A stretch of DNA of 64,000 nt from assembly GCF_003426735.1 (NCBI RefSeq), contig NZ_QVON01000003.1, positions 124,001 to 188,000 on the forward strand. The letters are read 5' to 3'. Under the pieces are notes generated by a model, which had not been told where the DNA came from, searched no databases, and saw only the letters and a list, made by a program, of their open reading frames with translations. Shown piece after piece: positions 29,306-64,000 of the stretch. This DNA is from Arenibacter sp. P308M17 (lineage in GTDB: Bacteria > Bacteroidota > Bacteroidia > Flavobacteriales > Flavobacteriaceae). Within the stretch, counting starts at the first letter, position 1, and each line of letters opens with the position of its first letter. The position numbers and the translations under genes were made by a program.

Positions 29306-29317
29306 TCACAATCTGCC

Positions 29318-33398: not shown

Positions 33399-33429
33399 AG
33401 GGTCTGGTAGTTTAAATAAGACTACTAAT

Positions 33430-42469: not shown

Positions 42470-42492
42470 CCCATTTGGAAATGTATGCCTTA

Positions 42493-43341: not shown

Positions 43342-44002
43342 GAATTTAAAATAATTTATTAATCTAAAACTATGGATAGTAAACATATGTTTTTTTGATC
43401 TTAATAGGATAAAAACCTTCCTGACCGGAACCCAAACAGACATCGTGCTTTTTCAACATTAAAAACGCAGCGCCTTCAATGTCTTAAAGTATTGAATTTC
43501 TAGATATTAAACAACAGTACGCTTGTAATTTCCAAAAATAAGATTCCTGAATTAACCTGTCCCATAGACCATTTTTATGTTTTGCTTTTCATCCTGGTCA
43601 TGAACAAAAATACCTTTCCATAACCAAAAAGAAAGAAAGATATAAATATGGAAATTAAAATCTATGGCATACTATATCCTGCCATAATTAATGCTGTTCA
43701 AGTATTAATTTTTGATCCTTTACCGCTACCGCTTCACAGTATATATTTGGTAGATATTTCTTTCTGCAATATGGGATAATAAACAATAAAAATTCTTTGA
43801 AACCACCCCCTTGGCCATTCCTTTAGGAGGCTATCATTAGCAATGGTTTTATTGGGGATCGTATTGGCCATTTGCTTACTTTTAGCCTAATTACAATCCC
43901 TAGGTCCAACAGGACAGGATTCCTTAAAGGATAATCCCTTTTGAACTGTATTATTTTTTAGTGGGTTTTGATAAAATTATTACCGTTAAATTATTACTCT
44001 AT
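43342..44002. other. Intergenic region of about 660 bp, no gene seen
   Basis: The gap separates the divergent ThuA (minus) and GH42-like (plus) genes. TATATTTG at 43742-43749 matches a Bacteroidota -7 box on the plus strand, but it lies about 250 nt before the start and has no well-spaced -33 TTTG. No repeat or RNA gene was recognised. Confidence 0.4.
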
Positions 44003-46147: not shown

Positions 46148-46188
46148 TCATATGCAATGACCCCCGAGGTATTTAAACTCCATGAAAA

Positions 46189-47538
46189 TCAGGGTCCCAT
46201 CATATTCTTAAATGCTGCCAAGGGACAAGTAAGGGTAGTCATGTACAGCGGGTTTTGTGTATGCCCGGAAGGATGAAAACATTCAAAGGGCGCTCCGTAT
46301 TCCGGTCCCTTTCTAAAATCGTTCTCCCTTAAATCTTCCACATACTCCTTGGCCAGTTGCTGGGCCAATTTAAAATTGGTTTTGGCTATGGCATAGCAGA
46401 CCCATCCCGTTGGTGTCCCCCAATAAGCGCCATTCTGGTAGGTGTTTTTCTTTGCCAGAGAAAATTCCCATGCAGTGGAATCGCTAAAATCATCTGTAGT
46501 TAGTATGTGTCTTATGTTGCCCTTATAGGACAAATGGCCATTTTCATAGGCTTGGGATAGAAACCTACTTGTTTTTTTGGTCTTCTCTTCGCTCAAGATA
46601 CCGTAATAAATTGCCAGGGCCGTTGACCATACGTCTGCCTGATTTCCTTTCCCGGTCGATGCTTTAAGCATGCCCCTATCATCCATAAACAATAGCGGTA
46701 TGGCATCTTTGATCTTGGCGGCTATCAAGCTGTATTTTTGTGCTTTAACTTCATTGTTTAGTTTCCCGAATACATCCGCAAGCTGTAAGGCCGCCTTATA
46801 TTTGAGTATGGACGGATAACAAAGATCTCCCGTTATAGTCATTACATCCCTAAATCCAAAATCTATGCCCCTAAAATGGTCCGTGGTTGTAACTATATGG
46901 TCGGTTAATCTTGCTGGTGGCACATTAAAAGCAATTTCTAGTCGGTCTATAAGGGTCATCCCATTAATTTCCTTATCCAAAATACTCACATCGGCAGTGG
47001 TCTCCACATAATAATGTGCCATATGGACAAAGAAAAACTGATCCCCATAAGGTGGGGTCCTACCGAACTCTGGAGTTCCCTGATCCTCGTAACTGTAGGT
47101 GCCAGGAAAGTATATAGGCAGACTGTCGTCCATACGAATATGATCCGCAATGGCGCCAAAGGGAACCAAAGCCCCATTTTTGGTAATCCAAGTACTATTG
47201 GCTTGGGTAGAGGCGGTCAATATTAACATATCCCTCTGCTCATGGGAAGAAACAAATCCGGTTTCCAAAGACATGGCATAATCACGTATCCAAAAAGCAG
47301 GATAACTTCCCCTTCCCCCAGGTTTTATAAGTGCCATTCCCGTATTGTTGGTACCCATCCCGTCCGCCACATGCTGTCCAGGAAAAATTCGGGAACTATC
47401 AATTATTGTTGCAGTAAGTGCTTCCAAAAAGCGATAATCCCCACTACTCAAAATAGGGTCTTGTACCATACTATTGGATTGCCCGTTACCTAACGACATT
47501 AAAGCCAAGGCGAAAATGGCTAATATTGATTTCTTCAT
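46189..47538 (-). CDS. Secreted six-hairpin glycosidase
   Basis: The 449-residue protein has a signal peptide (cleavage near GNGQ, about 20). It is built from helical repeats of an (alpha/alpha)6 toroid: PAFWIRDYAMSLETGF, DRLEIAFNVPPARL, GLMTITGDLCYPSILKYKAAL-like segments, and WGTPTGWVCYAIAKTNFKLAQQL. The RDY after the FWI strand and the C-terminal EYGAPFECFHPSG look like catalytic or substrate loops. It resembles six-hairpin glycosidases (GH63, GH78 and related), but the exact family is not assigned. It ends convergently with the GH42-like gene 41 bp away. Confidence 0.7.
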   Translation of the reverse strand: MKKSILAIFALALMSLGNGQSNSMVQDPILSSGDYRFLEALTATIIDSSRIFPGQHVADGMGTNNTGMALIKPGGRGSYPAFWIRDYAMSLETGFVSSHEQRDMLILTASTQANSTWITKNGALVPFGAIADHIRMDDSLPIYFPGTYSYEDQGTPEFGRTPPYGDQFFFVHMAHYYVETTADVSILDKEINGMTLIDRLEIAFNVPPARLTDHIVTTTDHFRGIDFGFRDVMTITGDLCYPSILKYKAALQLADVFGKLNNEVKAQKYSLIAAKIKDAIPLLFMDDRGMLKASTGKGNQADVWSTALAIYYGILSEEKTKKTSRFLSQAYENGHLSYKGNIRHILTTDDFSDSTAWEFSLAKKNTYQNGAYWGTPTGWVCYAIAKTNFKLAQQLAKEYVEDLRENDFRKGPEYGAPFECFHPSGHTQNPLYMTTLTCPLAAFKNMMGP

Positions 47539-47701
47539 AAAATGGATTAATAATTAACGGCAAAATGAACAACACCATTTTAACCGCTCAAAATAGAACC
47601 TACATCCGATCCTGTAAAGTAATTGGACCTTCCTATCTCCCTATTGCATTATAGGAGCAAATACTTCCATGTCAGCAACAGGGTTGTTGTTTTCCATTAA
47701 T

Positions 47702-47776
47702 GAATTCATCTTGACTTTTTCTATTAGCTGCAAAAGCATAACTTTTAGGTTGCAAACAAAAAATCAAGATGAGTTC
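47702..47776. mobile_element. 75-bp MITE-like element related to 33430-33590
   Basis: The ends GAATTCATCTTGA and TCAAGATGAGTTC are inverted at 12 of 13 positions, and AAT occurs on both sides. The outermost bases (TAATGA-TCAT and ATGAGTTCAATAT) are shared with the element at 33430-33590. The interior has GCAAAAG-CATAA-CTTTT with GGTTGC. It lies between the glycosidase and ppnP genes and has no coding capacity. Confidence 0.6.
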
Positions 47777-47819
47777 AATATCCCCTCATACGAAAAGGAT
47801 AATCAGATATTCCTAAAAA

Positions 47820-48101
47820 CTATTCGTATTGGCACAAATAGGAGGTTTGCCCTACCGACTTCACCTTGAAGGAACTCTGGGCGTCTACCTTAAAAGAAGA
47901 ACCTGCCTTAAAAGATTGCCATTCGGATTCCCCCGGTAACAAAGCAATTAGCTCCCCTTCCACCACTATCATGTTTTCCTTGGAAGAGGTACCAAATTCA
48001 TACTCCCCTGGTTCCATCACCCCTATGGTCGATTTTCCATTGGCCGAGATATACCCCAAGGATTTTACGGTTCCATCAAAATATTCGTTGCTCAAGATCA
48101 T
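47820..48101 (-). CDS. ppnP: Pyrimidine/purine nucleoside phosphorylase PpnP
   Basis: The 93-residue protein matches the PpnP (DUF1255, YaiE) family in length and sequence: NEYFDGTVKSLGYISANGKSTIGVMEPGEYEF and EGELIALLPGESEWQSFKAGSSF, ending in YLCQYE. It is a one-domain cupin that cleaves ribonucleosides with phosphate. A clear TATATTTG promoter box lies 26 bp upstream, and it is a single-gene unit. It is a housekeeping-type nucleotide salvage gene and not part of the glycan cluster. Confidence 0.92.
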   Translation of the reverse strand: MILSNEYFDGTVKSLGYISANGKSTIGVMEPGEYEFGTSSKENMIVVEGELIALLPGESEWQSFKAGSSFKVDAQSSFKVKSVGQTSYLCQYE

Positions 48102-48126
48102 ATATTTTCTTTTATTGGATAGGACA

Positions 48127-48134
48127 CAAATATA
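48127..48134 (-). promoter_or_regulatory. Bacteroidota -7 box (TATATTTG) of ppnP
   Basis: On the minus strand this reads TATATTTG, matching TAnnTTTG, 26 nt before the ppnP start codon. No clear TTTG -33 box is seen at standard spacing. Confidence 0.45.
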
Positions 48135-48277
48135 AAAAAAGGAAATTCGGAATTTTCATTATCATCATATTTTTAAATGTACTAACCCTCCTATTTACCC
48201 GGTCACCATTTGGTTTACAAGGGAATGGTTTTTAACAACTTTGGAGTATCTTTAGGTAATCTTTATTTGTAGTAAAA

Positions 48278-48985
48278 ATGAGAACAATTATTTTCCTATT
48301 GGTGCTAATTTCATGGGAAGCACGAACCCAAGATCCGATGGCCGAACCTAACGATTATTTAAAGGAAATCAAAGAAAAGCTAAAAATAGAATGGCCCAAT
48401 AACCGGACGATCAATCTAGTATTCCATGGGCATTCGGTTCCCGCCGGCTATTTTAAGACCCCCATCGTAAACACTTTGGATGCCTACCCTTTTCTAGTAC
48501 TAAAAGAAATAAAGGAACACTACCCCAATGCCGTAATCAACATTATAAACACCTCTATTGGGGGAGAGAATTCTGTTAGCGGCGCGGAACGATTTGAGGC
48601 CGAGGTCCTCGTACATAAGCCTGATGTACTTTTCTTGGATTATGCCCTTAATGATGCGGGAATTGGTCTTGAAAGGTCCAAGGAAGCATGGCGTTCCATG
48701 ATCGGAAAGGCCTTGGACCAAAAAATTAAAGTAATCCTCCTGACCCCTTCCCCGGACCAACGGATAGACATTATGGAAACAGATAATGTATTGGGGCAGC
48801 ACCAAAAACAGATCCGGCAATTGGCCATGGAAAATGGGGTTGGACTTGTGGATAGCTACACCTTATTTCAAGAAAAAGCGCTTTCAGGCGATAGCATTTC
48901 GAAATATATGTCCCAAGTGAACCATCCCAATAAGGAAGGCCACAAGCTCATTGCCGATGAAATACTTACCTATTTTCAGGAATGA
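48278..48985 (+). CDS. Secreted SGNH/GDSL hydrolase
   Basis: The 235-residue protein has a signal peptide (MRTIIFLLVLISWEARTQDP). The block I motif is HGHSVPAGYF (catalytic Ser53), block II GGENSVSG, block III LNDAG and block V VNHPNKEGHK (catalytic His). Such enzymes remove acetyl or other acyl groups from carbohydrates. With sulfatases and glycosidases nearby, a carbohydrate esterase role is likely. The block I GHS rather than GDS and the N before the catalytic H are variants within the superfamily. It is 7 bp upstream of the second ThuA gene and probably cotranscribed. Confidence 0.85.
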   Translation: MRTIIFLLVLISWEARTQDPMAEPNDYLKEIKEKLKIEWPNNRTINLVFHGHSVPAGYFKTPIVNTLDAYPFLVLKEIKEHYPNAVINIINTSIGGENSVSGAERFEAEVLVHKPDVLFLDYALNDAGIGLERSKEAWRSMIGKALDQKIKVILLTPSPDQRIDIMETDNVLGQHQKQIRQLAMENGVGLVDSYTLFQEKALSGDSISKYMSQVNHPNKEGHKLIADEILTYFQE

Positions 48986-48992
48986 ACGGAAC

Positions 48993-49862
48993 ATGGGAAC
49001 AAATACCTCGGGAATGAGAGTCAGGGAAATTTTAATTTGGGGTATCTTTTTTTGTATTAGCTTATCCTGTAGGGCCAACGGGACCTGTACCTTTAAAGTG
49101 CTTGCGTTCTACACCGCCAAAAATGACGCTGCCCACATCAGTTTTGTTGGAGAGGCCAATACATGGTTTTCCAAAATGGGGCGCAAATTTAATTTTTGTT
49201 ACGAAGCCACCGATAATTGGAGCCTTTTAAACCAGGAATACCTTTCAGCCTATCAGGTCGTAATATTTCTAGATACCCGCCCGGAAAATCCCTTGCAAAG
49301 GTCGGCCTTTGAAAAGTATATGAAGAATGGTGGCGGTTGGTTGGGATTCCATTTTTCAGCTTTTGCGTTGTCCCCTTCCTCCTATCCGAACAACTGGGAT
49401 TGGTACCAAAATTCGTTTTTGGCCTGTGGGGTATATTCTGGCAATACCTGGAGACCTACGGCCGCAACTCTTAAAGTGGAAAACAGGGACCATCCCATTA
49501 CCCGAAAATTTCCTAAAAAAATAAAATCGACCCCAAATGAATGGTACAAATGGGAAAAAGACCTTCGGACCAATCCGGACATTGAAATACTTTTATCGGT
49601 CCATCCTAAAAGTTTTCCTTTGGGAACAGGACCGAAACCCCATGAAATATGGCATTGCGGATACTATCCCGTAGTATGGACCAATAAAAAGTATAGAATG
49701 GTGTACTTTAACATGGGACACAACGATATTGATTACGAAAACGGAACCCACAAAGAGCTTTCCTTTACCTTTGGCAAAGAGGATCAGAACAGACTAATAG
49801 TGAATGCCCTATTGTGGGCGGGAAAAAATGAAGGCAAGAGACAACCACATCAACTAAAATGA
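48993..49862 (+). CDS. ThuA-domain protein (2)
   Basis: The ATG at 48993 (290 residues) is used because the longer frame at 48951 overlaps the esterase gene. Another ATG at 49014 begins right before the hydrophobic export segment (REILIWGIFFCISLSC). The ThuA core has FKVLAFYTAKNDAAHISFV, YQVVIFLDTRPEN, NGGGWLGFHFSAF and KYRMVYFNMGHNDIDYEN. It shows no close resemblance to the first ThuA protein beyond the family core. It follows the SGNH esterase gene, and both probably belong to one export-bound glycan-processing unit. Confidence 0.85.
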   Translation: MGTNTSGMRVREILIWGIFFCISLSCRANGTCTFKVLAFYTAKNDAAHISFVGEANTWFSKMGRKFNFCYEATDNWSLLNQEYLSAYQVVIFLDTRPENPLQRSAFEKYMKNGGGWLGFHFSAFALSPSSYPNNWDWYQNSFLACGVYSGNTWRPTAATLKVENRDHPITRKFPKKIKSTPNEWYKWEKDLRTNPDIEILLSVHPKSFPLGTGPKPHEIWHCGYYPVVWTNKKYRMVYFNMGHNDIDYENGTHKELSFTFGKEDQNRLIVNALLWAGKNEGKRQPHQLK

Positions 49863-50457: not shown

Positions 50458-51081
50458 ATGAATGGAAAGTCTACAATAACAATCCAAGATGGCAAAGTAG
50501 GAATGATCGGTTACGGTATGTTATCCTCTTTGGAGAGTATTGAGGAAATTTTGGGGAGAAAATACCAGGATACTATTTATTGCATACATCTTAAAGGCCT
50601 GCAGCGCGCTTGGAATTTTGTTGCCCCCAATAACGACCCGAATTTTCCTGCAGAATATATAAAATATGAATCCCTTTGTCTTAAAAATAACGGCGCCATA
50701 CCTTACGAAAATTCTATTTTTCTGAATATTATTGAAAATAAGGATATACGATTAAACTGTATATTGTATTTTGTAACCCATGAGGAATTGGTATTGTTCG
50801 ATGAATTTGAATTTGGGTATAAAAGAATGGATGTAACCGATCGCGTGGAAGAATACCATTTTGAAAACGGTAAAGTCTATGCTTACAAGGCACTTCCGGC
50901 ATATGAATATGACGTCATTTATGACGAGGACAAGAGCATTATAGAAAAAAGTTATTTAGATTTAGTTTTGGCATTCTATGATAACATGGGAAATGAACAC
51001 AGACTGGAATTTGAACAATCCACAATCCCCCATGATCCCAGGTTGGTAGCACCTGTAATACATAATAAGGCAGGGGAGTAA
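50458..51081 (+). CDS. Gamma-glutamylcyclotransferase-like protein
   Basis: The 207-residue cytoplasmic protein has GMIGYGMLSSLESIEEILGRKY, which resembles the YGTL-type dinucleotide/glutamyl-binding loop of the GGCT fold. The downstream IPYENSIFLNIIENKD, HEELVLFDEFEFGY and KVYAYKALPAYEYD segments fit the beta-barrel of that fold. A C-terminal extension (IEKSYLDLVLAFYDN) is unusual. The reaction is unknown. It is separate from neighbours (93-bp gap) and is followed by the convergent membrane protein. Confidence 0.55.
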   Translation: MNGKSTITIQDGKVGMIGYGMLSSLESIEEILGRKYQDTIYCIHLKGLQRAWNFVAPNNDPNFPAEYIKYESLCLKNNGAIPYENSIFLNIIENKDIRLNCILYFVTHEELVLFDEFEFGYKRMDVTDRVEEYHFENGKVYAYKALPAYEYDVIYDEDKSIIEKSYLDLVLAFYDNMGNEHRLEFEQSTIPHDPRLVAPVIHNKAGE

Positions 51082-51101: not shown

Positions 51102-52328
51102 TCAATCTTTCCTCAAATCTCCCGTATTTCTTTTTAAAAAATCAACAAACAAAAAGTGTCCTGACATAATCAAAAGAAGCATAAATAAATACTCATTAAA
51201 AAAATTATCCTTGGAAGGAAAGCTAGGGACATACAACTTAAAGGCCAATAGATAATTTACCACGCATAGTATCATAAAGGACAAGCTATATCGCCAGTTC
51301 CTAAGGCAACCCAAATAAAGACCGGGCTTCATTAAAAGTGCCAATTCCTTTCCCAACAATTGCCCGGCCAAAGGCCATAAAAAAATGAGTGGCAAGGCAA
51401 ATAATCTGGTTTCCCTGGCCAAGGTAGCTACCATTACAATGGGTGTATTAATAGCCACTGCCAGTAGAAACGCCCGGACGTATTTTTTTTCCAATGCAGA
51501 AAATATCCAGGACTTTTTGCCCATATAAAGAAAATATAGGCTAGGACCCAAGACCAGGAAAAATGACACTACGGATTCTACGGCACTGGCATAAGTGCCA
51601 AAATTCTGAAAATAACAGCTCAGCCTATTCGTGGCCACCTCCGACGTTTCGTTCCAAATACCGCTGGCCCAAATAAATATCCCCAAATAAATAACGTACA
51701 AGGGAAGTGGCAGAAAGAGTAGGAATAATTTTTTCTTGACCAATGATGTTGTCTTATTGATGGTTTTGAAACTGAGGCCCGAAAAAATAATGACCAACCC
51801 GGGCAGTAGAAAAACAGTGCTTTCCCTAGCTATAGTGGCCATTAAAAATAAGGGGACATAGTTCCTCCACTTTTCTTGGATCAAAGCAAGAATACCGAGC
51901 ATAATCAAACAATATTGTAAAGGCTCATCATAACTAAATACAGGGGGGAAAAAAGCGAATAGAATGGAAAATGTCAGAAAATAAGCCACTTGGTTAAATA
52001 GGGCCTGACCCCTTGTTGCCCGAAGCCTTAATGAAATTTTATAGATCAATAATCCACTTATAAACAGCAACAACAGATTTACCAGTACAAAGGACTCCCC
52101 TAGCGTAATTCCAAAAATGCCTGAGGACCCCTCAATTAACAAAGATGTTAATGGGCGTCTCGCAAAGGGTGCAAATTCCTGATGGTATCTAATTTGGGAG
52201 GCCAAAAAAACATGGGACAGTTTAGTGTTGTTTTCATTCAACATACTATCCGATATAGGCAGCATATGAATGCCGTATATCAACATAACAAACAGAAAAC
52301 TAACAATATACTGTAAATAGCCTTTCAT
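51102..52328 (-). CDS. Polytopic membrane protein of unknown function
   Basis: The ATG at 52328 (MKGYLQYIVSFLFVMLIYG) gives 408 residues and is a more natural start than 52364. There are about ten hydrophobic segments, for example ILFAFFPPVFSYDEPL and AFLLAVAINTPIVMVATLARET. Conserved aspartate-glutamate pairs lie in the first external loop region. The layout resembles integral-membrane glycosyltransferases or dolichyl-type mannosyltransferase relatives, but no signature was recognised. It is a single gene, convergent with the GGCT-like gene. Confidence 0.65.
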   Translation of the reverse strand: MKGYLQYIVSFLFVMLIYGIHMLPISDSMLNENNTKLSHVFLASQIRYHQEFAPFARRPLTSLLIEGSSGIFGITLGESFVLVNLLLLFISGLLIYKISLRLRATRGQALFNQVAYFLTFSILFAFFPPVFSYDEPLQYCLIMLGILALIQEKWRNYVPLFLMATIARESTVFLLPGLVIIFSGLSFKTINKTTSLVKKKLFLLFLPLPLYVIYLGIFIWASGIWNETSEVATNRLSCYFQNFGTYASAVESVVSFFLVLGPSLYFLYMGKKSWIFSALEKKYVRAFLLAVAINTPIVMVATLARETRLFALPLIFLWPLAGQLLGKELALLMKPGLYLGCLRNWRYSLSFMILCVVNYLLAFKLYVPSFPSKDNFFNEYLFMLLLIMSGHFLFVDFLKRNTGDLRKD

Positions 52329-52552
52329 AACATCCTTACCAATGATAGGCCTAAAAGTAAACAAAACATTAGTTGGTTGTTATGTAGCAAAATATTTATT
52401 CCCTTCAGAAAAAGCAGTAGTTTCCTAGGGCGGTTAAATTTTACTTTGTATACCCTATTTTAGTAGCCCCAAGTCTTGTTCTTTTTATCATAGAACAGTG
52501 CTAAGGGTAGGAAAATTGGTGTACAAGGATTCTACCTAAAGCAGTATATCGT

Positions 52553-53832: not shown

Positions 53833-54831
53833 TTAATCTGCCATAATAAAGTTTAAAAAACCTGGACTGTTCCATTGCTGGTATGCCCCTGGAGTGTCCT
53901 CTACCATAAATACATCCAAGTCTGTAGTTTCCCGGACCACTTTCCCACCTTCCCCAATTCCCAAAACACTTAGGGCCGAGGCATAGGCATCTGCCATGGT
54001 CCCATTGGGAGCTATAACCGTAACTTGGATGTTATTGCTCAAGGCCATGCCATTTTTTGGGTCGATTATATGTGAATATCGCTTCCCATCTATAATGGAA
54101 TACTGATATAAATCCCCCGATGTGGCTACGGCCTGATTTTTAAGCCTTACTTTTTGAAATACCTCTTCCCCATTTTCATTGAAATAACTAAACCCTAAAA
54201 TCCAAAACTCCTTATTGGGCGGAGCCCCGCTAACAGTAACGTCCCCACCCATATCTACCAATGCCGACTTTATACCGTTTCTTTTCAATACCTCTATGGC
54301 TTCATCCGCAGCAAACCCCTTTCCTATACCCCCAACATCCAATTGCATTCCCTCTTGCCTTAACCTTACCGTATTTACATTTGGGAATTCCAAATGGCTA
54401 TGACCGGTCCTCTGCTGTGCGGATCTTATTTCGGCCATTGAAGGAACTTGCCTATTTTTCCTGGATTTTTTCCATAGTTCAATGAGCGGCCCCAGGGTAA
54501 TATCAAAAGCACCGGAGGTCCTTTTGGCATAGTCTCCTGAAATATTCATGAGGCGAAATAAATCCGCACTCACGACCACATTCCTATTTGGCTTTTTACT
54601 GAGCTGATTAATTTCGCTTTGCGGAAGATAATTACTTAATATACTGTTCAGCACATCTATCCTCTTGAATACCAATTGCGCTATGGAATCTGCCCTAGCC
54701 TTATCATTTTCATAAAAGACAAGACCTATTTGGGTGCCCATTTGTTGATGGGAGTATTCATATCTGGTTTGGGCGAAGGATGTAGCACAAAATGCATAAA
54801 ACAAAACAATAATTGGAATACGGTACATCAT
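53833..54831 (-). CDS. apbE: FAD:protein FMN transferase (ApbE family)
   Basis: The start at 54831 (MMYRIPIIVLFYAFCATSFA) gives 332 residues with a signal peptide (cleavage near AQ). The family signatures are present: SGAFDITLGPLIELW, GGIGKGFAADEAIEVLKRNGI, MGGDVTVSG, and the FAD-pyrophosphate region KNGMALSNNIQVTVIAPNG. ApbE attaches FMN covalently to Thr or Ser in redox proteins of the membrane or periplasm. It lies 35 bp after the membrane cytochrome gene of the first DUF1501 operon, so its substrate may belong to that respiratory-like module; this is inference. Confidence 0.92.
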   Translation of the reverse strand: MMYRIPIIVLFYAFCATSFAQTRYEYSHQQMGTQIGLVFYENDKARADSIAQLVFKRIDVLNSILSNYLPQSEINQLSKKPNRNVVVSADLFRLMNISGDYAKRTSGAFDITLGPLIELWKKSRKNRQVPSMAEIRSAQQRTGHSHLEFPNVNTVRLRQEGMQLDVGGIGKGFAADEAIEVLKRNGIKSALVDMGGDVTVSGAPPNKEFWILGFSYFNENGEEVFQKVRLKNQAVATSGDLYQYSIIDGKRYSHIIDPKNGMALSNNIQVTVIAPNGTMADAYASALSVLGIGEGGKVVRETTDLDVFMVEDTPGAYQQWNSPGFLNFIMAD

Positions 54832-54866
54832 ACAGATTCTGTGCAATTTTTAATCTAATGACGAAT

Positions 54867-56303
54867 TTACTGTATACTGTCCACAATAGTGTCCTTCTCT
54901 ATAAAATCTGTTTTAAGTTCCGGATCAATACCATGGTCTATATACAGATTAGGAACAGCTTCCATTAGCTGGGAAAGTCCGGAATCGGACAGTTGTGTCT
55001 CCCAAACATAAAGACTGTTCAGATTCTTTAGATCCTTCAAAACGGCCACACTTTCATCGCCAATACCGGTTTCATAGGCCTTGAGGACCCTAAGATGTAC
55101 AAGTCCCGATAATTTAGCAAATTCGGCATCCTTAATGGGGGTGCGGTCCACTTCCAACCATTCCAAATTTTTGCACATTGCCACAAATTCCATTTCCTTT
55201 TCTCCGATGGGGATTCCGCTCAAATCCAACTCCACAATATTATTGGCAATCCGTTTTAAATCCGTAATATTCTTCGGATCATATTCCGGCGGCAGGTAAA
55301 CGGATATGCCCAGCGCCTGAGAATTGCTGGCAACCCTTTTTATGGTAACATAATCCGAAGCTAAATTTTGCAAAGTGCTGTCCGCTACTTTGGGAAGTTT
55401 TGACCATGAATTCTTTGTTCCGGAATCCATCATTTTTTTGACCATCCCTGCCAAGGGTTCGTTACTGTCCAAATGGCTTAACTTTAAGGTGTCCGAGGCA
55501 CCCATGGCAATCCAGCGTTCCAGTATCTGTATTTCATTTTCTGACAAAGGTTTCTTGCCATCCGGAGGCATATGTTCCTCGTCTTCCACAGGCAAATGCA
55601 GGCGTCTTATCAGTTCACTTTTCCCCGGATCGCCCAAAACCAAGGCCGGTCCACTTTCACCTCCTTGGACAAGTTCGCTTATATCGGTCATCAACAGCTC
55701 CCCTTTTTTCTTGTTCGGATTATGGCAGCCTATGCAATTATTGTCCAATATGCGGTATACTATATGTTCATAAATCAGGGGGTCTTCGGGAATCTTTTCC
55801 AATTTCTTACTTTTTGGCAAAGCCAAAAAATCCTCCCCATGGGTAATCATCCCGCCATAATGACCAGTGAACCCTACCAAAATAATCAATACCACCTGGA
55901 TTCCTTTCACCAGATAGGTCTGTTGCAAATGATTGGTGCTCACCCAATACCAGAGAACTGCCAAAATAGCCACGCCGGCCCCCATCCATTGGTGCCATAA
56001 AAGAAGACTGCCTTTTGGTACGGCCTCGTTTCCCAAAAAGAAACCTGTTATGGCAGTAACCAAGGCAGAGATGGTAGCAACGGTAAGCAAGAGCTTGGGC
56101 ACCATTCTATTGAAAAGTCCAAGCGCGGCAGACATCAACAAAAGCACTATGGGAAAGTGCAAAATTAACGGATGCCAACGCCCCAACCAGGCCACTAGAC
56201 CGGGAAGATCAATAAAGGATTCGAATATTAAACAAAAAATAAGAAATACAGTAAGACCGAAAATAACATAATCGACCCAGGGAGAACTATTTTTTTGAGC
56301 CAT
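54867..56303 (-). CDS. Membrane cytochrome c with DUF2231-like TM region and LRR tail (operon 1)
   Basis: The 478-residue protein has about five N-terminal membrane helices, including GRWHPLILHFPIVLLLMSAA (DUF2231-like), residues about 12-150. A single c-type haem site follows (CIGCH, 190-194), and the Met region HMPPDGKKPLSENEIQILERWI matches planctomycete-type cytochromes (PSCyt1). The C-terminal part (about 345-465) has leucine-rich repeats such as LVHLRVLKAYETGIG. It is 3 bp from the DUF1501 gene, in one operon. Electron transfer at the membrane is likely; the LRR may dock a partner. A paralog lies at 60643-62037. Confidence 0.85.
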   Translation of the reverse strand: MAQKNSSPWVDYVIFGLTVFLIFCLIFESFIDLPGLVAWLGRWHPLILHFPIVLLLMSAALGLFNRMVPKLLLTVATISALVTAITGFFLGNEAVPKGSLLLWHQWMGAGVAILAVLWYWVSTNHLQQTYLVKGIQVVLIILVGFTGHYGGMITHGEDFLALPKSKKLEKIPEDPLIYEHIVYRILDNNCIGCHNPNKKKGELLMTDISELVQGGESGPALVLGDPGKSELIRRLHLPVEDEEHMPPDGKKPLSENEIQILERWIAMGASDTLKLSHLDSNEPLAGMVKKMMDSGTKNSWSKLPKVADSTLQNLASDYVTIKRVASNSQALGISVYLPPEYDPKNITDLKRIANNIVELDLSGIPIGEKEMEFVAMCKNLEWLEVDRTPIKDAEFAKLSGLVHLRVLKAYETGIGDESVAVLKDLKNLNSLYVWETQLSDSGLSQLMEAVPNLYIDHGIDPELKTDFIEKDTIVDSIQ

Positions 56304-56306
56304 ATA

Positions 56307-57767
56307 CTATGTTAAGATATCGTTTACAACATTGCCCGCCACATCCGTGAGTCTAAAGCGACGGCCCTGATATTTATAAATTAGTTGTTCGTGGTCCAAT
56401 CCCAGGTTATTCATAATGGTAGCGTGGAAATCATTGATATGAACCGGGTTTTTTACAATATTATAGCCAAACTCATCCGTTTCTCCATAGGTAATGCCCG
56501 GCTTTATGCCGCCACCGGCCATCCATATACTAAAAGCCCTCGGGTGATGGTCCCTACCGTAATTTTTTAGATCAAAGTTTCCTTGGCAATAATTGGTCCT
56601 TCCAAACTCCCCGCCCCATATAACCAAGGTATCCTCCAACATACCACGTTGTTTCAGATCCAGGATCAGGGCTGCAGAGGCCTGATCCACGTCCTTGGCC
56701 TGGCCTGCCATTTCATTGGGCAGATTGCCGTGCTGATCCCACCCCTGATGGTACAACTGAATAAAACGGACCCCATTCTCTGCAAGTCTACGGGCCTGCA
56801 GACAATTGGCGGCATAGGTGCCGGGAACCTGGGAATCTTCCCCATATAATTTTATTATGGATTCCGGCTCTTTTTTAATATCCATTACATCGGGTACGGA
56901 CATCTGCATCCTATAGGCCATTTCATACTGTGCGATCCTTGATTCTATCTCATCGTCCCCGGTCTCAACATGATGTATTTTGTTCAAGGAGGATACATGG
57001 TCCAATAAATGCCTTTTATCGGAACGGGAAATTCCATCCGGGTCGTTCAAATATAAAACGGGATCTTTTCCGGACCGCAATAGTACCCCTTGGTGCTTGG
57101 AATCCAAGAATCCGCTGGACCAAAGCTTGGAATACAGCCCTTGGCTATTGCCCTTTCCCCTGGAGGTAAGCACCACAAAGGAGGGTAAGTTCTGATTCTC
57201 ACTTCCCAGACCATAACTCATCCAGGATCCCATACTTGGGCGACCGGATTGCTGGCTCCCTGTTTGAAAAAAGGTAATTGCCGGATCGTGGTTTATGGCC
57301 TCGGTGTGCATACTTCTAACGATACAGATCTCATCGGAAATTTTGGCTATATGCGGAAAAAACTCGCTTACCCATGCTCCACTTTTACCATGTTGGGAAA
57401 ATTTGGCCGCAGAAGGCATCAAGGGAAATTTATCCTGCCCAGCGGTCATTCCCGTAAGCCGTTGCCCGTTCCGTATCGATTCCGGCAGATCTTCGCCCAT
57501 CCGCTTGGTAAGGGTAGGTTTATAATCAAAGGATTCCAACTGTGACGGGGCCCCGGATTGAAACAAATAGATTACCCGTTTCGCTTTAGGGGCAAAATGG
57601 GGAATTCCCAATGGTTGGCCCGCCAAGGGTTTGGGACCACCTTTAAAAAGGTCCGGGATCAACAAAGATCCCAAAGCCAATGAACCGATCCCCACACTTA
57701 ATTGTGAAAAAAAGTGTCTTCGATTTACCTTGAGGGGGTTTTCAGAATTTGTTTTATCTTCTTCCAT
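56307..57767 (-). CDS. DUF1501 exported protein (operon 1)
   Basis: The 486-residue protein has an RR signal (VNRRHFFSQLSVGIGSLALG) and the DUF1501 motifs VIYLFQSGAPSQLESFDYKP, RSMHTEAINHDPAITFFQTG, QLYHQGWDQHGNLPNEM and GGEFGRTNYCQGNFDLKNYGRDHHPRAF. These proteins resemble a sulfatase/phosphatase-like alkaline phosphatase fold, but their reaction is not established. In planctomycetes and marine Bacteroidota they are always encoded next to DUF1553 cytochrome proteins. The gene sits 5 bp downstream of such a gene and 3 bp upstream of the membrane cytochrome. Confidence 0.92.
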   Translation of the reverse strand: MEEDKTNSENPLKVNRRHFFSQLSVGIGSLALGSLLIPDLFKGGPKPLAGQPLGIPHFAPKAKRVIYLFQSGAPSQLESFDYKPTLTKRMGEDLPESIRNGQRLTGMTAGQDKFPLMPSAAKFSQHGKSGAWVSEFFPHIAKISDEICIVRSMHTEAINHDPAITFFQTGSQQSGRPSMGSWMSYGLGSENQNLPSFVVLTSRGKGNSQGLYSKLWSSGFLDSKHQGVLLRSGKDPVLYLNDPDGISRSDKRHLLDHVSSLNKIHHVETGDDEIESRIAQYEMAYRMQMSVPDVMDIKKEPESIIKLYGEDSQVPGTYAANCLQARRLAENGVRFIQLYHQGWDQHGNLPNEMAGQAKDVDQASAALILDLKQRGMLEDTLVIWGGEFGRTNYCQGNFDLKNYGRDHHPRAFSIWMAGGGIKPGITYGETDEFGYNIVKNPVHINDFHATIMNNLGLDHEQLIYKYQGRRFRLTDVAGNVVNDILT

Positions 57768-57772
57768 AATCG

Positions 57773-60115
57773 TTATTCTTTGGTAATTGTTTCATCAAGA
57801 TTGTAGATTACCTGTGCCGTAAGCATCAGTGCGGCCGTTTTTGCCGGATCCGTATCCAACCTTTTATATTCTCCCTGGGCCACCAATTTTTGGGCATTCT
57901 CCTTTTCTTTCAAGAACTTTTCCAGCGCATCGGAATAATATTCATCCAGGACCTTTTTTTCCTCCTCCTTGGGATTCCTTACCAAGATACGCCGAAATAC
58001 TGTGGTGACCCACATTTCCGCATCCTTGGTATCCGTAATGGTATTTTCAGCCAACACCCGGGCCGCCTCCAACATTTGAACATCGTTCTGTAGTGCCAAG
58101 GCCTGTAAAGGGGTATTGGTCTTTTGCCGCCTTACTTCACAGATATCCCTATTGGGCGCATCAAAAATGGACATGCTGGGCGGTGGCAGGGTCCTTTTCC
58201 ATAGGGTATAAAGGGAACGCCTGTACAATTTATCCCCTTCATCGGCCACATAGGTGGTAAGTACCCCCCTATTGCCCCCAGCGTTGGTCTCCTCCCATAG
58301 CCCGGGGGGTTGATAGGGCTTTACGCTGGGGCCCCCAATCTCCCTGTTCAATAGGCCGCTGGTGGCCAGAACGTAGTCCCTTATGATTTCCCCGCTCATC
58401 CTGAACCTTGGGGCCCTGGATAGCCACTTGTTGTCGGGGTCCGCCTTTTTGGACTCTTCCGTAGCTATGGAGCTTTGCTGATAGGTAGCGGATAACATAA
58501 TTTTTTTCAGCAGATATTTTATGTCCCAACCGTGTTCCATAAAATCTTTGGACAGCCAATCCAACAATTGGGGATGGCTGGGCAAGCTGCCCTGAACCCC
58601 GAAATCTTCAGAGGTTTCCACAAGTCCGTTCCCGAACACCATTGCCCAGACCCTGTTCACGAAGACCCTGGAGGTCAACGGATTGTTTTCATCGGTCACC
58701 CATTGGGCCAGTCCCAATCTGTTCTTTGGGAGCTTATCCGAGAAAGGAAGTATAATTTCTGGGGCATTAGGGGTTACCTCCTCCCCAGGGCTGGCATACT
58801 CCCCTCGGTTGAAAATGTAGGTTGTCCTTGGCATGGAATCGTTCATGACCATTACCTTAACATCTTCCCCTTCGGACTTGTTGATAAAGGACAAAACCCC
58901 ATTGGACTCCTCATCGGTAATGGTCATAAAGGGGGCGTCCGCAAAATATTTCTGATTGGCAGCCTGTACGGCATCCATACGCAGCCCCATTTCGTTCACG
59001 TTGTTGAAAAAGGAATAGATCTCATAATAATCCCTTTGGGACAGCTGGTCGTATTTGTGGTCATGGCATTTGGCGCATTCCAGGGTAAGGCCCAATATAC
59101 CCTTACCCAAAGTATTGGTACGGTCCACCACATAATAGGACTGGTATTCCTCCTGGATAACGCCGCCCTCCTGGGTTATGGGATGGTTTCTGTTGAACCC
59201 AGTGGCCAGTACCTGTTCCTTGGTGGCATTGGGCATCAGATCGCCCGCCAATTGCACGCTCAGAAACTCATCATAGGGCATATTATTATTGAAGGCATGG
59301 ATCACCCAGTCGCGCCAGGGCCACATGCTCCTATAACTATCGTCCTGATAGCCATGGGAGTCCGCGTATCTGGCCACGTCCAGCCAGACCTGCGTCATAC
59401 GCTCCCCATATGCGGGAGAGGCCAAAAACTCATCTATGGCCCGCTCCAATACATCCCCTGAAGAACCGGAAAGATAACTTTCCACCTGGCCCGCATTGGG
59501 AGGAAGGCCCGTTAGGTCCAGACTCATTCTCCTGATCAGGGTATGCTCTTCTGCCCTTGAGGAAGGCACTAGCCCGTTCTCCTCCAACTTTTCCAAAATA
59601 AAGGCATCGATCTCATTTTGTGCCCAATCGGTACGTTCGGTTTTTGGAATATCCGCTTTCTTTGGGGGAATAAAAGCCCAATGCTTTTCAAACTTGGCCC
59701 CCTGCTCGATCCATTTTTTCAGCAATTTCTTTTCGTAGGAATTAAGTGCCAATTGCGAATCTGGTGGGGGCATCAGCTGTTTCGAATCATCGGTTACCAC
59801 ATGTTGGTACATTAGGCTGTTACCGGGTTTGCCCGCCACAATGGGGTATTTCCCGGGATTCTCCGGCAGTTCGGAAAATGCGTTGGATTCCAGATCCAAT
59901 CGCAGGCCGGCCTTACGTTTATTGGCATCCGGCCCATGACAGGTATAACAATTATCCGAGAGTATTGGCTTTATATGAAAATTATAATCTACTACCTCAG
60001 GCAATTTCTGGTCGGCATAACTGTCCTTGGAGGATTTGAAAAATCCCGACTTAATTGCGAACAGTAGGACCACCAGACCCAATAAAATTAATATTATACT
60101 AAGCTTTTGTCTCAT
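57773..60115 (-). CDS. PSCyt1-DUF1549-DUF1553 exported cytochrome protein (operon 1)
   Basis: The 780-residue protein is anchored by one N-terminal helix (LSIILILLGLVVLLFA). It has a haem site NCYTCHGPDANKRKAG (56-60), then the DUF1549 domain from about 145 (NEIDAFILEKLEENGLVPSS, LTGLPP), and the DUF1553 domain in the C-terminal half (FVNRVWAMVFGNGLVETSEDFG, and RRQKTNTPLQALALQND). It is the first gene of the three-gene minus-strand operon, and the 527-bp upstream gap presumably holds its promoter. The function of the DUF1549/1553 pair is unknown, but the haem site suggests redox chemistry on a glycan or other polymer. Confidence 0.92.
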   Translation of the reverse strand: MRQKLSIILILLGLVVLLFAIKSGFFKSSKDSYADQKLPEVVDYNFHIKPILSDNCYTCHGPDANKRKAGLRLDLESNAFSELPENPGKYPIVAGKPGNSLMYQHVVTDDSKQLMPPPDSQLALNSYEKKLLKKWIEQGAKFEKHWAFIPPKKADIPKTERTDWAQNEIDAFILEKLEENGLVPSSRAEEHTLIRRMSLDLTGLPPNAGQVESYLSGSSGDVLERAIDEFLASPAYGERMTQVWLDVARYADSHGYQDDSYRSMWPWRDWVIHAFNNNMPYDEFLSVQLAGDLMPNATKEQVLATGFNRNHPITQEGGVIQEEYQSYYVVDRTNTLGKGILGLTLECAKCHDHKYDQLSQRDYYEIYSFFNNVNEMGLRMDAVQAANQKYFADAPFMTITDEESNGVLSFINKSEGEDVKVMVMNDSMPRTTYIFNRGEYASPGEEVTPNAPEIILPFSDKLPKNRLGLAQWVTDENNPLTSRVFVNRVWAMVFGNGLVETSEDFGVQGSLPSHPQLLDWLSKDFMEHGWDIKYLLKKIMLSATYQQSSIATEESKKADPDNKWLSRAPRFRMSGEIIRDYVLATSGLLNREIGGPSVKPYQPPGLWEETNAGGNRGVLTTYVADEGDKLYRRSLYTLWKRTLPPPSMSIFDAPNRDICEVRRQKTNTPLQALALQNDVQMLEAARVLAENTITDTKDAEMWVTTVFRRILVRNPKEEEKKVLDEYYSDALEKFLKEKENAQKLVAQGEYKRLDTDPAKTAALMLTAQVIYNLDETITKE

Positions 60116-60642
60116 TTGGGAACTTTATTTTCATTTGTTTAAATTGAAAATGGAAGGATTACACATCCCATTATTTCTAGCTAAGATGACATCTCTCCTT
60201 AATTTACATATACTACATTATTTATACTAAAATAACAACATATTTTCATTAAATCCGTAAAATATCCAGAATTAACTTTACTATTTTCCATAATATTCAA
60301 GAATGTTCCAATTAATATTCCTGATTTAACATTATTTTCTATTTCCTATTGTTTAGAGAAGGGTCATCCGGCCCAATAATATACCCACTTTTTAGACCCT
60401 TAGGGAATTTTAACGATATAAGGGCCAATCCATCATTAAAATTTCTTTACCGGTACAGCATATAAATTAATCTATACACTAAAACTATATTAAGGTAAAG
60501 CAATTGTTCGCAATCAAACCTCTTATTTTTATGCCTCTAGCCTATGGCTTATGGCAAAAACATTTTTAGAAGCTAAAGCGGAGTTTTAAGTCCAACCGAG
60601 ACCAATAATCCATTGGCCAATTTTAACCCCATTATACCGCAA
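60116..60642. other. Intergenic region, no gene seen
   Basis: The 527 bp between operon 1 and operon 2 is AT-rich. It must carry the promoter of operon 1 and the 3' end of operon 2. No convincing -7 box, terminator hairpin or repeat was found by eye. Confidence 0.45.
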
Positions 60643-62037
60643 TTACATTCCCAGTATTACTTCAGGACGATTTTCTATGTCCCTAAAACTTGCAACTTCA
60701 TCTACTGTAATGGTCGTACCCCAAACATATACCCGTTTCAAACCCTTCATTTTTAGAAAGTTTTCAAAACTGGACGCCGTAATTTTAGTTTGATATAAAT
60801 TGAGTCCGGTTATACTCTGGATTCCCGTTAACTCGGCAATACCTACATCAGTAATCGGATTTTTTTCAATTTCCAATTTTTGAAGGTTTACAAACTGGCC
60901 GATGGTTTTTAAATGCTCGTCCTGCACCATATTATCCCTTAACGACAACCACAATATATTCAACTTTAATGGAAGTAACTTCTCCAACTTTCCTTCAAGT
61001 TCACCGCTATCCTTGGAAGTAATCGACTCCGGAGGCAACACTACTTCGTACAATCCAGATCCGAATATCAATTCCCGGATCTTGAAACCTGCATCCTCAA
61101 TATCCCTCAAAATTTCTGCACTAACCGGTTTCACCTTAGGCAGGGGAATTCCACTTTTACCGGTAACATCTTCCAGACCCAACATATTGGAGGCAATACT
61201 GGTTATATCCTCCGGGGTTTCCAAATCGGCCAGTTTCACCTTGAAATCTGCGTTGGCCTTTTCTATCCAAAACGACAAAATCTGTTTCTCCCCATCGGTA
61301 AGGGGAGTCTTGCCTTCGGGCGGCATAAAATCCTCATGGTGGGGATCCAACATGACCCGTCTGACCATCTCGGACTTGGCGACATTTCCCGCAATAAAGG
61401 CCTCCCCGTTTTTACCTCCTTTTTTAAAGGCAACGGAATCTTGAAAGGAGAGTCCGCCCTTTTTCTTACTGGAGTTATGGCAACTAGTGCACTTGGCCTC
61501 CAAGATAGGGTTAACCAAATAAGCGTAGACCTCGGCTTCCTCCAGTTTGACAATAGGGGGCAGCACTACCTTTTCCGATCTTCCAAATGGGGCATATTTG
61601 AACAAATAGTCGCTTCCATGGGTTAAATTACCCCCATAATGGCCTGTAATACCTACCAACAGGACCACCAAGGACAAGCCGGCCATATTGGATTTTAAAC
61701 CCTTCAATTTTGGTATATTCAACTTGCCCGAATGTATTGCCGAGGCAATAAATGCCACTATGGTGGTTGCTGCTCCAAACCAAAAATGTGTATCCAGCAT
61801 GGTCTGTTCATAGTCGCCTCCCAAAGAAAGCATATATCCCAGGACACTGGCCACCAATGCACTTATTGCCCCACCGAACAAGGCCAAACCTATGACCATG
61901 GTCAAGGCGGGATTCCTATGCCAGCGCCCATAGATTTCCAAAAGAAAGGCAAAAATCAAAAAACCAATGGGCAAGTGCACGACCAGTGGGTGAAATCGAC
62001 CCAGAAACAAAATAAAATCGGGTACGTTACTTTCCAT
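60643..62037 (-). CDS. Membrane cytochrome c with DUF2231-like TM region and LRR tail (operon 2)
   Basis: The ATG at 62037 gives 464 residues; the TTG at 62043 is the only alternative. It has the same layout as its paralog at 54867: membrane helices with LGRFHPLVVHLPIGFLIFAFLL, one haem site (CTSCH, 183-187), MPPEGKTPLTDGEKQILSFWI, then LRR-like segments (LQKLEIEKNPITDVGIAEL). Sequence conservation is clear in the helix, haem and Met regions and weaker elsewhere. It is the third gene of operon 2. Confidence 0.85.
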   Translation of the reverse strand: MESNVPDFILFLGRFHPLVVHLPIGFLIFAFLLEIYGRWHRNPALTMVIGLALFGGAISALVASVLGYMLSLGGDYEQTMLDTHFWFGAATTIVAFIASAIHSGKLNIPKLKGLKSNMAGLSLVVLLVGITGHYGGNLTHGSDYLFKYAPFGRSEKVVLPPIVKLEEAEVYAYLVNPILEAKCTSCHNSSKKKGGLSFQDSVAFKKGGKNGEAFIAGNVAKSEMVRRVMLDPHHEDFMPPEGKTPLTDGEKQILSFWIEKANADFKVKLADLETPEDITSIASNMLGLEDVTGKSGIPLPKVKPVSAEILRDIEDAGFKIRELIFGSGLYEVVLPPESITSKDSGELEGKLEKLLPLKLNILWLSLRDNMVQDEHLKTIGQFVNLQKLEIEKNPITDVGIAELTGIQSITGLNLYQTKITASSFENFLKMKGLKRVYVWGTTITVDEVASFRDIENRPEVILGM

Positions 62038-62081
62038 TACCAAGCTTTTGAACTACTTTCAACATCTTTATTCTTTTTACT

Positions 62082-63593
62082 TTATACCAGGATATCCTTC
62101 ACCACATCGCCATGTACATCGGTAAGGCGAAACCTACGGCCTTGATGTTTAAAGGTCAATCTTTCATGGTCAATTCCAAAAAGGTGCAACAGAGTCGCTT
62201 GAAAATCGTGGGTATGTACCGGATCCTTGATAATGTTATACCCAAAATCATCGGTTTCCCCATAGGTAAATCCCGGTTTCATCCCTGCCCCTGCCATGAA
62301 CATGGTAAAGGCCTTAGGGTGGTGGTCACGTCCGTAGTTCGTTTCCGTGAGCTGGCCTTGGGAATAGACCGTACGTCCAAACTCTCCGCCCCATACCACC
62401 AATGTATCTTCCAGCATGCCCCTTTGTTTTAAGTCCTTTATCAATGCCGCAGTACCCTGATCCGTATTCTTGCTTTGATATTTTACCCCACCGGGACAAT
62501 TGCCATGTTGATCCCATCCTTGGTGATATAATTGAACAAATTTCACATCCTTTTCCAATAATTTACGGGCCATCAAACAATTTGCGGCATAAGTACCGGC
62601 ATTTCGACTATCGGGTCCGTACATATCAAAAATATAGTCCGGCTCGTCCGACGTATCCGTAACCTCAGGTACGGAGGTCTGCATTCTATAGGCCATTTCG
62701 TATTGGGCTATCCTCGCATTAATCTCGGGATCCCCAAAAGCGTCATAAGCCATTCCATTCAATTTTTTCAAATAATCCAACATTTGTCTGCGGTCCTTTC
62801 CATCATAGTTCTCAGGATCTCCAAGATACAGCACGGGATCCTTTCCCGAACGGAACTGTACGCCCTGATGTTCGGTCGGCAAAAAGCCATTGCCCCACAA
62901 ACGGGAGTACAAAGGCTGCCCTGAACCATTTTTGGAGACCAATGAAATAAATGTTGGTAAATTATCATTGTCCGATCCCAACCCATAGCTGATCCAAGAA
63001 CCAATAGAGGGTCTCCCCGGCTGTTGGCTCCCGGTCTGAAAAAAGGTTATGGCCGGATCATGGTTAATGGCATCGGTATGCATGCCCTTAATAAAGCACA
63101 GATCATCCACTACCTCTGACAAATAGGGCATAGCCTCACTCACCCAGGCCCTGGATTCCCCATACTGTTTAAAGTTTAAAGTGGATGCAGCAATGGGAAA
63201 AGCGGTTTGATCGGCGCTCATCCCCGTTAGGCGCTGCCCGGCCCTAATGGAGTCGGGCAAATCCTGTCCAAACATATCCTTTAGTTTGGGTTTATAATCG
63301 AACAGGTCCAATTGTGAAGGGCCACCACTTTGAAAAAGGTATACAATCCTCTTTGCCTTGGGCAAATGATGGGGCAATCCCAAATTATTCTTAGTAAGGG
63401 AATGTAAAGAATTCCCGGAATCGGCCACGGAATTAACGGCACTCCAGAGTTTTTCCGACTGCAACAAGGAACCAAGGGCCATAGCCCCCAAACCTAGAGA
63501 GGTCTTCTTAAAGAACTCCCTTCTATCCCATTGCTTTTCGATGCCCTGAAGATCCCGATTGTTGGATCTTAATATATCGTGATGATCGCACAT
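62082..63593 (-). CDS. DUF1501 exported protein (operon 2)
   Basis: The 503-residue protein is paralogous to the one at 56307. It has an RR signal (WDRREFFKKTSLGLGAMALG) and the motifs RIVYLFQSGGPSQLDLFDYKP, KGMHTDAINHDPAITFFQTG, QLYHQGWDQHGNCPGG and GGEFGRTVYSQG. It has a longer N-terminus (about 24 residues before the RR motif) than its paralog. It lies 44 bp upstream of the membrane cytochrome gene and 35 bp downstream of the DUF1553 gene. Confidence 0.92.
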   Translation of the reverse strand: MCDHHDILRSNNRDLQGIEKQWDRREFFKKTSLGLGAMALGSLLQSEKLWSAVNSVADSGNSLHSLTKNNLGLPHHLPKAKRIVYLFQSGGPSQLDLFDYKPKLKDMFGQDLPDSIRAGQRLTGMSADQTAFPIAASTLNFKQYGESRAWVSEAMPYLSEVVDDLCFIKGMHTDAINHDPAITFFQTGSQQPGRPSIGSWISYGLGSDNDNLPTFISLVSKNGSGQPLYSRLWGNGFLPTEHQGVQFRSGKDPVLYLGDPENYDGKDRRQMLDYLKKLNGMAYDAFGDPEINARIAQYEMAYRMQTSVPEVTDTSDEPDYIFDMYGPDSRNAGTYAANCLMARKLLEKDVKFVQLYHQGWDQHGNCPGGVKYQSKNTDQGTAALIKDLKQRGMLEDTLVVWGGEFGRTVYSQGQLTETNYGRDHHPKAFTMFMAGAGMKPGFTYGETDDFGYNIIKDPVHTHDFQATLLHLFGIDHERLTFKHQGRRFRLTDVHGDVVKDILV

Positions 63594-63628
63594 ATCCCTC
63601 CTATTTAATTCTGCCTTTTCTTGATTTA

Positions 63629-64000
63629 TTATCTTTTGGTGATACAGGCATCCGCATTCATAATGGTATTGGCCACCACCGCATTGGCGGCTACCAAAGC
63701 CTTGTCATCCCTGCTATCCAATGCAAACTCACCTGTATTGAGCCAACCTTTTGTTTTTTCGGGCTTGGCCGTAAATTTTTTATATTCCTTCTCCTGGAGT
63801 TCAACCAACAATTGTAGCTCGCCCTGCTTAATTTTCCTTCCGGTAAGCTGTCTGAAAACATTGGAAATACCCAATTTCAAATCTCCCGAATCGACCATAT
63901 ATTTGCCCAAAACCCTGGATGCCTCAATATAAGTAGGATCATTGAGCAACACCAAAGCCTGCAGCGGGGTATTGGTTTCCTGCCGTTGTATGGTACATAC
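63629..64000 (-). CDS. DUF1553 protein, C-terminal fragment (operon 2), cut by window edge
   Basis: The frame is open to the window end and contains the last ~124 residues, including the typical C-terminal motif RQETNTPLQALVLLND and YIEASRVLGKYM, then a lysine-glutamate-rich helical end. It is the paralog of the C-terminal part of the protein at 57773. The N-terminal cytochrome and DUF1549 domains lie beyond the window. Its stop codon lies 35 bp upstream of the DUF1501 start, so it is the promoter-proximal gene of operon 2. Confidence 0.9.
   Translation of the reverse strand, partial: VCTIQRQETNTPLQALVLLNDPTYIEASRVLGKYMVDSGDLKLGISNVFRQLTGRKIKQGELQLLVELQEKEYKKFTAKPEKTKGWLNTGEFALDSRDDKALVAANAVVANTIMNADACITKR

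Follow-up and report, generated by a model that had tools for sequence, protein, structure and literature searches.

The window analysed here, a stretch of 64,000 nucleotides from Arenibacter sp. P308M17 (contig NZ_QVON01000003.1, positions 124,001 to 188,000), ended in two adjacent three-gene units, A and B, both on the - strand and both in the order DUF1553, DUF1501 and membrane cytochrome according to the open reading frame (ORF) list and Pfam. Each unit encoded a two-haem PSCyt1-DUF1549-DUF1553 protein, a DUF1501 protein with a twin-arginine (Tat) motif and a membrane protein of DUF2231 type that carries a single haem c; DUF1549 and DUF1553 are the domains named PSCyt2 and PSD1, respectively. 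Unit A (54867-60115) consisted of a gene for a PSCyt1-DUF1549-DUF1553 protein of 780 amino acids (aa) with a hydrophobic N-terminus and CxxCH motifs at residues 56 and 347 (57773-60115; ORF, Pfam), a gene for a Tat-motif DUF1501 protein of 486 aa (56307-57767; ORF, Pfam) and a gene for a membrane protein of 478 aa with DUF2231-type helices and one PSCyt1 haem c, CIGCH (54867-56303; ORF, Pfam, alignment). Unit B consisted of a gene for a PSCyt1-DUF1549-LamG-DUF1553 protein of 1076 aa with a lipoprotein-like start (63629-66859; Pfam), a gene for a Tat-motif DUF1501 protein of 503 aa (62082-63593; ORF, Pfam) and a gene for a DUF2231-PSCyt1 membrane protein of 466 aa with a weak LRR match and four predicted helices (60643-62043). 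The end of the window cut the first gene of unit B and left its C-terminal end (63629-64000); the gene was complete in the genome (locus L009, 11629-14859). A divergent AraC gene lay above unit B (L009:15069-15938), and an ApbE gene (FAD:protein FMN transferase family; 53833-54846, - strand; Pfam), with at most a putative role in the module, lay 20 bp downstream of unit A.

PSCyt1, DUF1549 and DUF1553 were found within one protein, above the Pfam cut-offs, in both units, and a DUF1501 gene followed directly downstream. Pfam matched DUF1501 in both second proteins and PSCyt1 in both third proteins; DUF2231 was matched in the third protein of unit B only, and the unit A copy was joined to the same helices by alignment. 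Intergenic gaps were 5 bp (DUF1553/DUF1501) and 3 bp (DUF1501/membrane gene) in unit A, and 35 and 38 bp in unit B, the latter becoming 44 bp if the last gene starts at the ATG in its third codon; the units were 527 bp apart. Identity between A and B was 59% for DUF1501, 48% for DUF1553 and 29% for the membrane protein. The initial annotation, which had described two three-gene units with gaps of 3-44 bp, each made of a haem protein, a hydrolase-like protein and a haem membrane anchor, in diverged paralogous copies and in a likely Bacteroidota host, agreed with these results, with the haem motifs and DUF1501 fold given below, and with the closest DUF1501 among the matches listed (Arenibacter troitsensis, 99%). 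It had also called the reaction unknown, and no reaction was found reported for DUF1501, DUF1800 or DUF1553 proteins in the literature searched.

The description of the pair as duplicated did not hold. A total of 137 module DUF1501 genes were collected (7 from the host genome, 85 from named-genome records and 45 from other records); a DUF1553 gene lay directly upstream in 137/137, partly by selection, since units were found through one gene or the other. Trees were built with FastTree on MAFFT alignments; the fused type served as root for DUF1501 and DUF1553, and the membrane-protein tree was rooted at its midpoint. Units A and B fell in separate clades in all three gene trees and were not sisters. 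The 11 orthologues of unit A lay inside a branch of 96 sequences that excluded unit B (support 1.0 for DUF1501, 0.999 for DUF1553), and the 14 orthologues of unit B formed a clade of their own (support 1.0). Unit B was sister to the L011 unit in the DUF1553 tree (0.98), grouped with L011, L013 and L162 in the membrane-protein tree (0.99), and was sister to the whole large group holding unit A in the DUF1501 tree (0.85), so that the three trees disagree on its nearest relative.

Locus comparisons were consistent with the trees. Both units were present in L125, L126 and L128-L131. In L142, unit A stood alone between SUMF1-YceI and ApbE-M20, and in L141 it lay beside a remnant of 138 aa resembling the membrane gene of unit B. 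A unit A relative near SUMF1 and YceI, with no unit B, was found in L019 and L022-L025 (Maribacter, Euzebyella and uncultured Flavobacteriaceae). Duplication of a single operon in tandem within the lineage would account for the same order, same strand and adjacency, and true recent duplicates do exist elsewhere; the separate clades in three trees, the placement of the unit B DUF1553 with L011 and unit A alone at its site in L142 refute it for this pair, and it is regarded as extremely improbable. By the trees, units A and B are old, different clades placed side by side. The simplest history would be that unit B, together with the AraC gene, was inserted within the genus beside a resident unit A (SUMF1-YceI-unit A-ApbE-M20) and was lost in places. 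In L127, a unit-A-type DUF1553 gene stood beside unit B and was followed by genes of 588 and 1095 aa in place of DUF1501; the same genome also had an intact unit A about 30 kb away (L145).

The module was patchy yet widespread in Bacteroidota. The host genome had seven DUF1553 genes at six places, with five module loci besides the A/B pair, and in one of the seven proteins a membrane part and a haem domain were fused to DUF1549 and DUF1553. At least 589 relatives of the unit A DUF1501 were found in a scan of named genomes, the best 80 of them all under Bacteroidota names. DUF1553 was present in 49/395 sampled Bacteroidota genomes (6/118 in a smaller sample) and in 18/18 genomes of the genus, and arrays of three to four DUF1553-DUF1501 pairs occurred in other genomes (L190, L191, L192). 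The claim that a tandem pair is notable in Bacteroidota was thus not borne out: a side-by-side pair is ordinary, and it is the module itself that merits attention, for its two-partner rule and for a His at the expected nucleophile position. Two DUF1501 proteins of L190 were 97% identical and represent a genuine recent duplication. In L191 two DUF1553 genes adjoined each other, and in L128 (10344-15247) and L017 (5231-9957) two consecutive DUF1553 genes were followed by one DUF1501 gene.

DUF1501 genes were paired with either DUF1800 or DUF1553, almost without exception. In 118 genomes, where matches on one contig counted as neighbours up to a distance of 3 kb, 98 DUF1501 genes were distributed as 76 beside DUF1800, 21 beside DUF1553, 0 beside both and 1 beside neither. 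Conversely, a DUF1501 neighbour was present for 76/77 DUF1800 and 21/21 DUF1553 genes. Split matches were merged, and one DUF1501 fragment below the cut-off (G076:C1:223277) was excluded. In 395 genomes, which included the listed ones of the 118 and were related and hence not independent, DUF1501 was present in 173, all of which also had DUF1800 or DUF1553; DUF1800 only was found in 125, DUF1553 only in 20 and both in 29 (presence rather than copy number, with 4 to 6 candidates scored per genome). The exceptions were a DUF1501 gene in G096:C3 with no partner seen, where no retained frame matched, a DUF1800 gene in G113:C102 that ran into the contig end, and G145, counted among the 125, in which the DUF1800 match was weak (E 3.3e-11) and DUF1501 absent. 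In short loci with flanks of 1.5 kb, a DUF1501 relative stood beside DUF1800 in 25/30. DUF1552 (HXXSHH), presumably the partner of another haem family of the Planctomycetes-Verrucomicrobia-Chlamydiae (PVC) bacteria, gave 2 weak matches below the cut-off in the 395 genomes. The host genome also carried a DUF1800-DUF1501 pair (L124:2-3003, G000:C1) with a longer DUF1501 (open frame 576 aa) that had an extra C-terminal stretch.

This near-perfect rule joins families treated apart in the literature searched and singles out two proteins to be considered together. Genes for DUF1501, DUF1800 or DUF1553 are carried by very many bacteria; one protein search scored at least 7,999 clusters. COG4102 and COG5267 are taken here to be DUF1501 and DUF1800, respectively. 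The DUF1800-DUF1501 pair is already in print as a predicted operon (PMC5122149), genomic clusters with DUF1501 have been described for PVC bacteria (PMC4452313), and for SAR202 bacteria COG4102 and COG5267 are listed among the uncharacterised families associated with expansions of paralogs (PMC6946804). According to He et al. 2017, PSCyt2 genes usually adjoin a family of unknown genes, which we infer to be DUF1501. In the literature searched, no paper was found that named both DUF1501 and DUF1553 or both DUF1553 and DUF1800, and no report was found that DUF1800 and DUF1553 replace each other as partners of DUF1501. PSCyt1-PSCyt2 (DUF1549)-PSD1 (DUF1553) genes of Planctomycetes and Verrucomicrobia have the same Pfam domains in one protein, a likeness at domain level; here, unlike there, they belonged to an operon of three genes in Bacteroidota, one of which encodes a PSCyt1 membrane protein of DUF2231 type.

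The two alternative partners are probably remote homologues over a core of about 70 residues, as judged from profiles. No DUF1800 was matched by Pfam in the first proteins of units A and B, which gave DUF1549-DUF1553 instead, and the DUF1553 hidden Markov model had no match at E 1 among the proteins of the 30 DUF1800 loci; only profile-profile comparison saw the likeness. There, 28 DUF1553 and 29 DUF1800 sequences (L105, of the 30 loci, left out) aligned over 65 columns at E 7e-4, with a probability of only 26%. A less redundant set still gave E 7e-4, and reversed and unrelated controls gave 0.07 or worse, except for the membrane protein with DUF1553, which truly share PSCyt1. The same DUF1800 region was recovered with the fused sequences alone (3.5e-4), with the remainder (1.9e-3) and with either DUF1800 half (9e-4 and 1.2e-3), and the best of 40 column-shuffled alignments reached E 0.085.

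The core fold of DUF1501 was that of the alkaline-phosphatase superfamily (NPP phosphodiesterases, sulfatases) by structure comparison, and a profile match agreed. His160 of the unit A protein aligned to the catalytic Cys of sulfatases in local and in global forced alignments, with low alignment confidence there, and the His was invariant in two sets of sequences (137/137 and 25/25). It likely occupies the nucleophile position, in which DUF1501 differs from the superfamily, and is the residue that should discriminate hydrolysis from another chemistry. No Ser, Thr or Cys nucleophile was found at the sulfatase Cys position in this low-confidence alignment. The formylglycine Cys of sulfatases, which lies in a CxPSR motif, was not found in the DUF1501 alignments. 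D344, H346, E387 and a DHH motif were conserved and resembled metal ligands; DUF1501 is probably a metalloprotein. An ordinary hydrolase, a sulfatase or phosphodiesterase working on exported glycans while the haem proteins anchor, sense or protect, would suit the fold, the invariant D, H and E residues and the DUF1800 partners, in which CxxCH was absent; the invariant His would leave it with neither formylglycine nor a Ser/Thr nucleophile at that position, and there would be no need for the two haem motifs that the partner conserves, so that this alternative is considered fairly unlikely.

RR occurred near the start of DUF1501 in 137/137 modules and in 21/25 DUF1501 neighbours of DUF1800. A hydrophobic-stretch threshold detected 50/137 and 1/25 of them, respectively, and so overlooks Tat signals. 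By the same crude count, an N-terminal hydrophobic stretch was present in 121/137 DUF1553 proteins and, in contrast, in 2/29 DUF1800 proteins; RR near the start of 14/29 DUF1800 was read as part of the domain motif. DUF1800 may leave the cell by way of Tat as a passenger of DUF1501, for which a cytoplasmic complex would be needed.

In the DUF1553 protein, the two CxxCH motifs were kept wherever the alignment covered them (134 and 136 of 137). Its PSCyt1 domain resembled FoxE (E 2.5e-8) and hydrazine synthase alpha (E 0.0034) by sequence and also by structure, a likeness confined to this haem domain. The model of the unit A protein (predicted local distance difference test, pLDDT, 86; predicted template modelling score, pTM, 0.88) had no Foldseek match at E 0.001 or better as a whole, and a VIA structure search with the whole model returned PSCyt1 matches and weak helical rows only. 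The DUF1549-DUF1553 part is modelled as helical; the fold searches cover the whole model only, and no new fold is claimed.

Five His were invariant in 63/63 membrane-protein sequences, four fused ones included. In unit B, a hydropathy scan predicted four helices; K/R lay in the two short loops, on the side away from the His, which by this prediction would be periplasmic and next to haem c. The five His suggest a putative b-haem or quinone site. The long membrane protein had a C-terminal end like beta-hexosaminidase.

Genomic neighbours gave no general substrate. The initial annotation had proposed a search for the module next to specific polysaccharide loci. SusC was found within five genes of 17/137 modules and 4/144 background positions, SusD of 13/137 and 4/144, and sulfatase of 10/137 and 12/144; the positions were not independent, the background ones coming from 20 stretches and their SusC and SusD from 2 of the 20. 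Among modules with all five genes present on both sides, SusC, SusD and sulfatase were found in 3/46, 2/46 and 3/46. A general link to polysaccharide loci was rejected on this weak or absent enrichment. Common occurrence with no shared neighbourhood, which that annotation had named as the outcome against it, was largely what was found: the module was common, and no general neighbourhood was shared. No SusC, SusD or sulfatase was matched in L009, and other window genes near unit A belonged to other Pfam families or to none.

Clustering of the neighbours of the 137 units without preset names gave an NHL-propeller gene within or next to the unit at 26 loci, an SIS-domain gene after it in 9 and ApbE nearby in 12 of the loci compared. 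An SDR followed a unit A relative in six loci, and in five of these the next gene had 2,4-didehydro-3-deoxy-L-rhamnonate hydrolase as best NCBIfam match (346 bits, below the cut-off of 500). Taken with the beta-hexosaminidase-like end, the SDR, rhamnonate hydrolase-like, SIS and NHL genes point to sugars as substrates, differing between lineages. A carbohydrate role for PSCyt proteins, predicted to be periplasmic or cytoplasmic, is proposed by He et al. 2017. The host-genome module locus at L011 (3830-17244) had an NHL gene and lay near three Pfam sulfatase genes. A Gfo/Idh/MocA oxidoreductase gene with a Tat-like start (L022:5674-6972) stood two genes above a unit A relative; its protein had weak matches to inositol and glycoside dehydrogenase models.

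Units A and B are best read as two independent copies of one exported periplasmic redox module that passes substrate electrons to the membrane, a reading that stands at about an even chance of being correct. The core would be the Tat-exported DUF1501 protein, with its alkaline-phosphatase fold and probable metal, and the helical DUF1549-DUF1553 protein with two c-type haem motifs. The pair would bind and convert the substrate, probably a sugar or sugar-like compound that differs between the units; electrons would pass from the two DUF1553 haems to the membrane protein, first to its haem c and then to a putative b-haem or quinone site formed by the five His at the periplasmic helix ends, and from there into respiration. 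A chain made up of these haems and the membrane His would fit either direction, and quinol electrons could instead run outward to reduce an external substrate or peroxide. The best 80 named carriers, which we take to be largely from aerobic genera, count against such reverse flow without being decisive. So does, equally short of decisive, the greater abundance of PSCyt genes in epilimnion genomes reported by He et al. 2017, and outward flow is judged unlikely. A structural role in the envelope or in internal membranes would connect with DUF1501 clusters tied to PVC bacteria with intracellular membranes, as PMC4452313 reports from Kamneva et al. 2012. The residue invariance of DUF1501 is enzyme-like, and DUF1501 occurred in 173/395 Bacteroidota genomes. 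We know of no such intracellular compartments in Bacteroidota, and this role is held to be quite improbable.

Several results weigh against the redox reading of the module. CxxCH was found in 0/29 DUF1800 proteins, so that a chemistry common to both pairs need not be redox. A simple hydropathy scan is the basis of the membrane topology, and the pattern was weaker in unit A, whose second short loop had no K or R. DUF2231 gave no meaningful match to PDB sequences (best E 0.38), which leaves the b-haem or quinone site to the His alone. A membrane gene was absent within three genes downstream in 20/137 DUF1501 units (some at contig or locus ends), and the L191 and L192 arrays had one membrane gene after three DUF1501 genes, an arrangement that suggests a core of DUF1553 and DUF1501, for which the membrane protein serves as a common outlet. 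The sugar hints were local to some lineages, and enrichment of polysaccharide-utilisation and sulfatase genes was weak or absent.

On a broader and rather doubtful reading, DUF1501 with either DUF1800 or DUF1549-DUF1553 would form one superfamily of exported two-protein machines, with homologous helical partners and optional haem. DUF1501 would no longer be hydrolytic, and the His, D344, H346, E387 and DHH would make a redox-active single-metal site; the haem version would be self-exported and wired to respiration, whereas the haemless DUF1800, in most cases lacking a signal, would be exported through Tat by DUF1501.

Elsewhere in the window, a gene of 154 aa was followed by one whose product, 778 aa long and with a twin-arginine start, was a molybdopterin-binding (MoCoBD) protein (28841-31654). 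One stretch (40592-49862) held a sulfatase with a weak HEAT match, GH42, a GDSL lipase and two ThuA genes, and a second sulfatase lay at 31788-33437. Genes of 449, 207 and 420 aa (46189-47538, 50458-51081 and 51102-52364) had no Pfam match at E 0.001. Other genes of the window code for efflux, amidohydrolase and molybdenum proteins.

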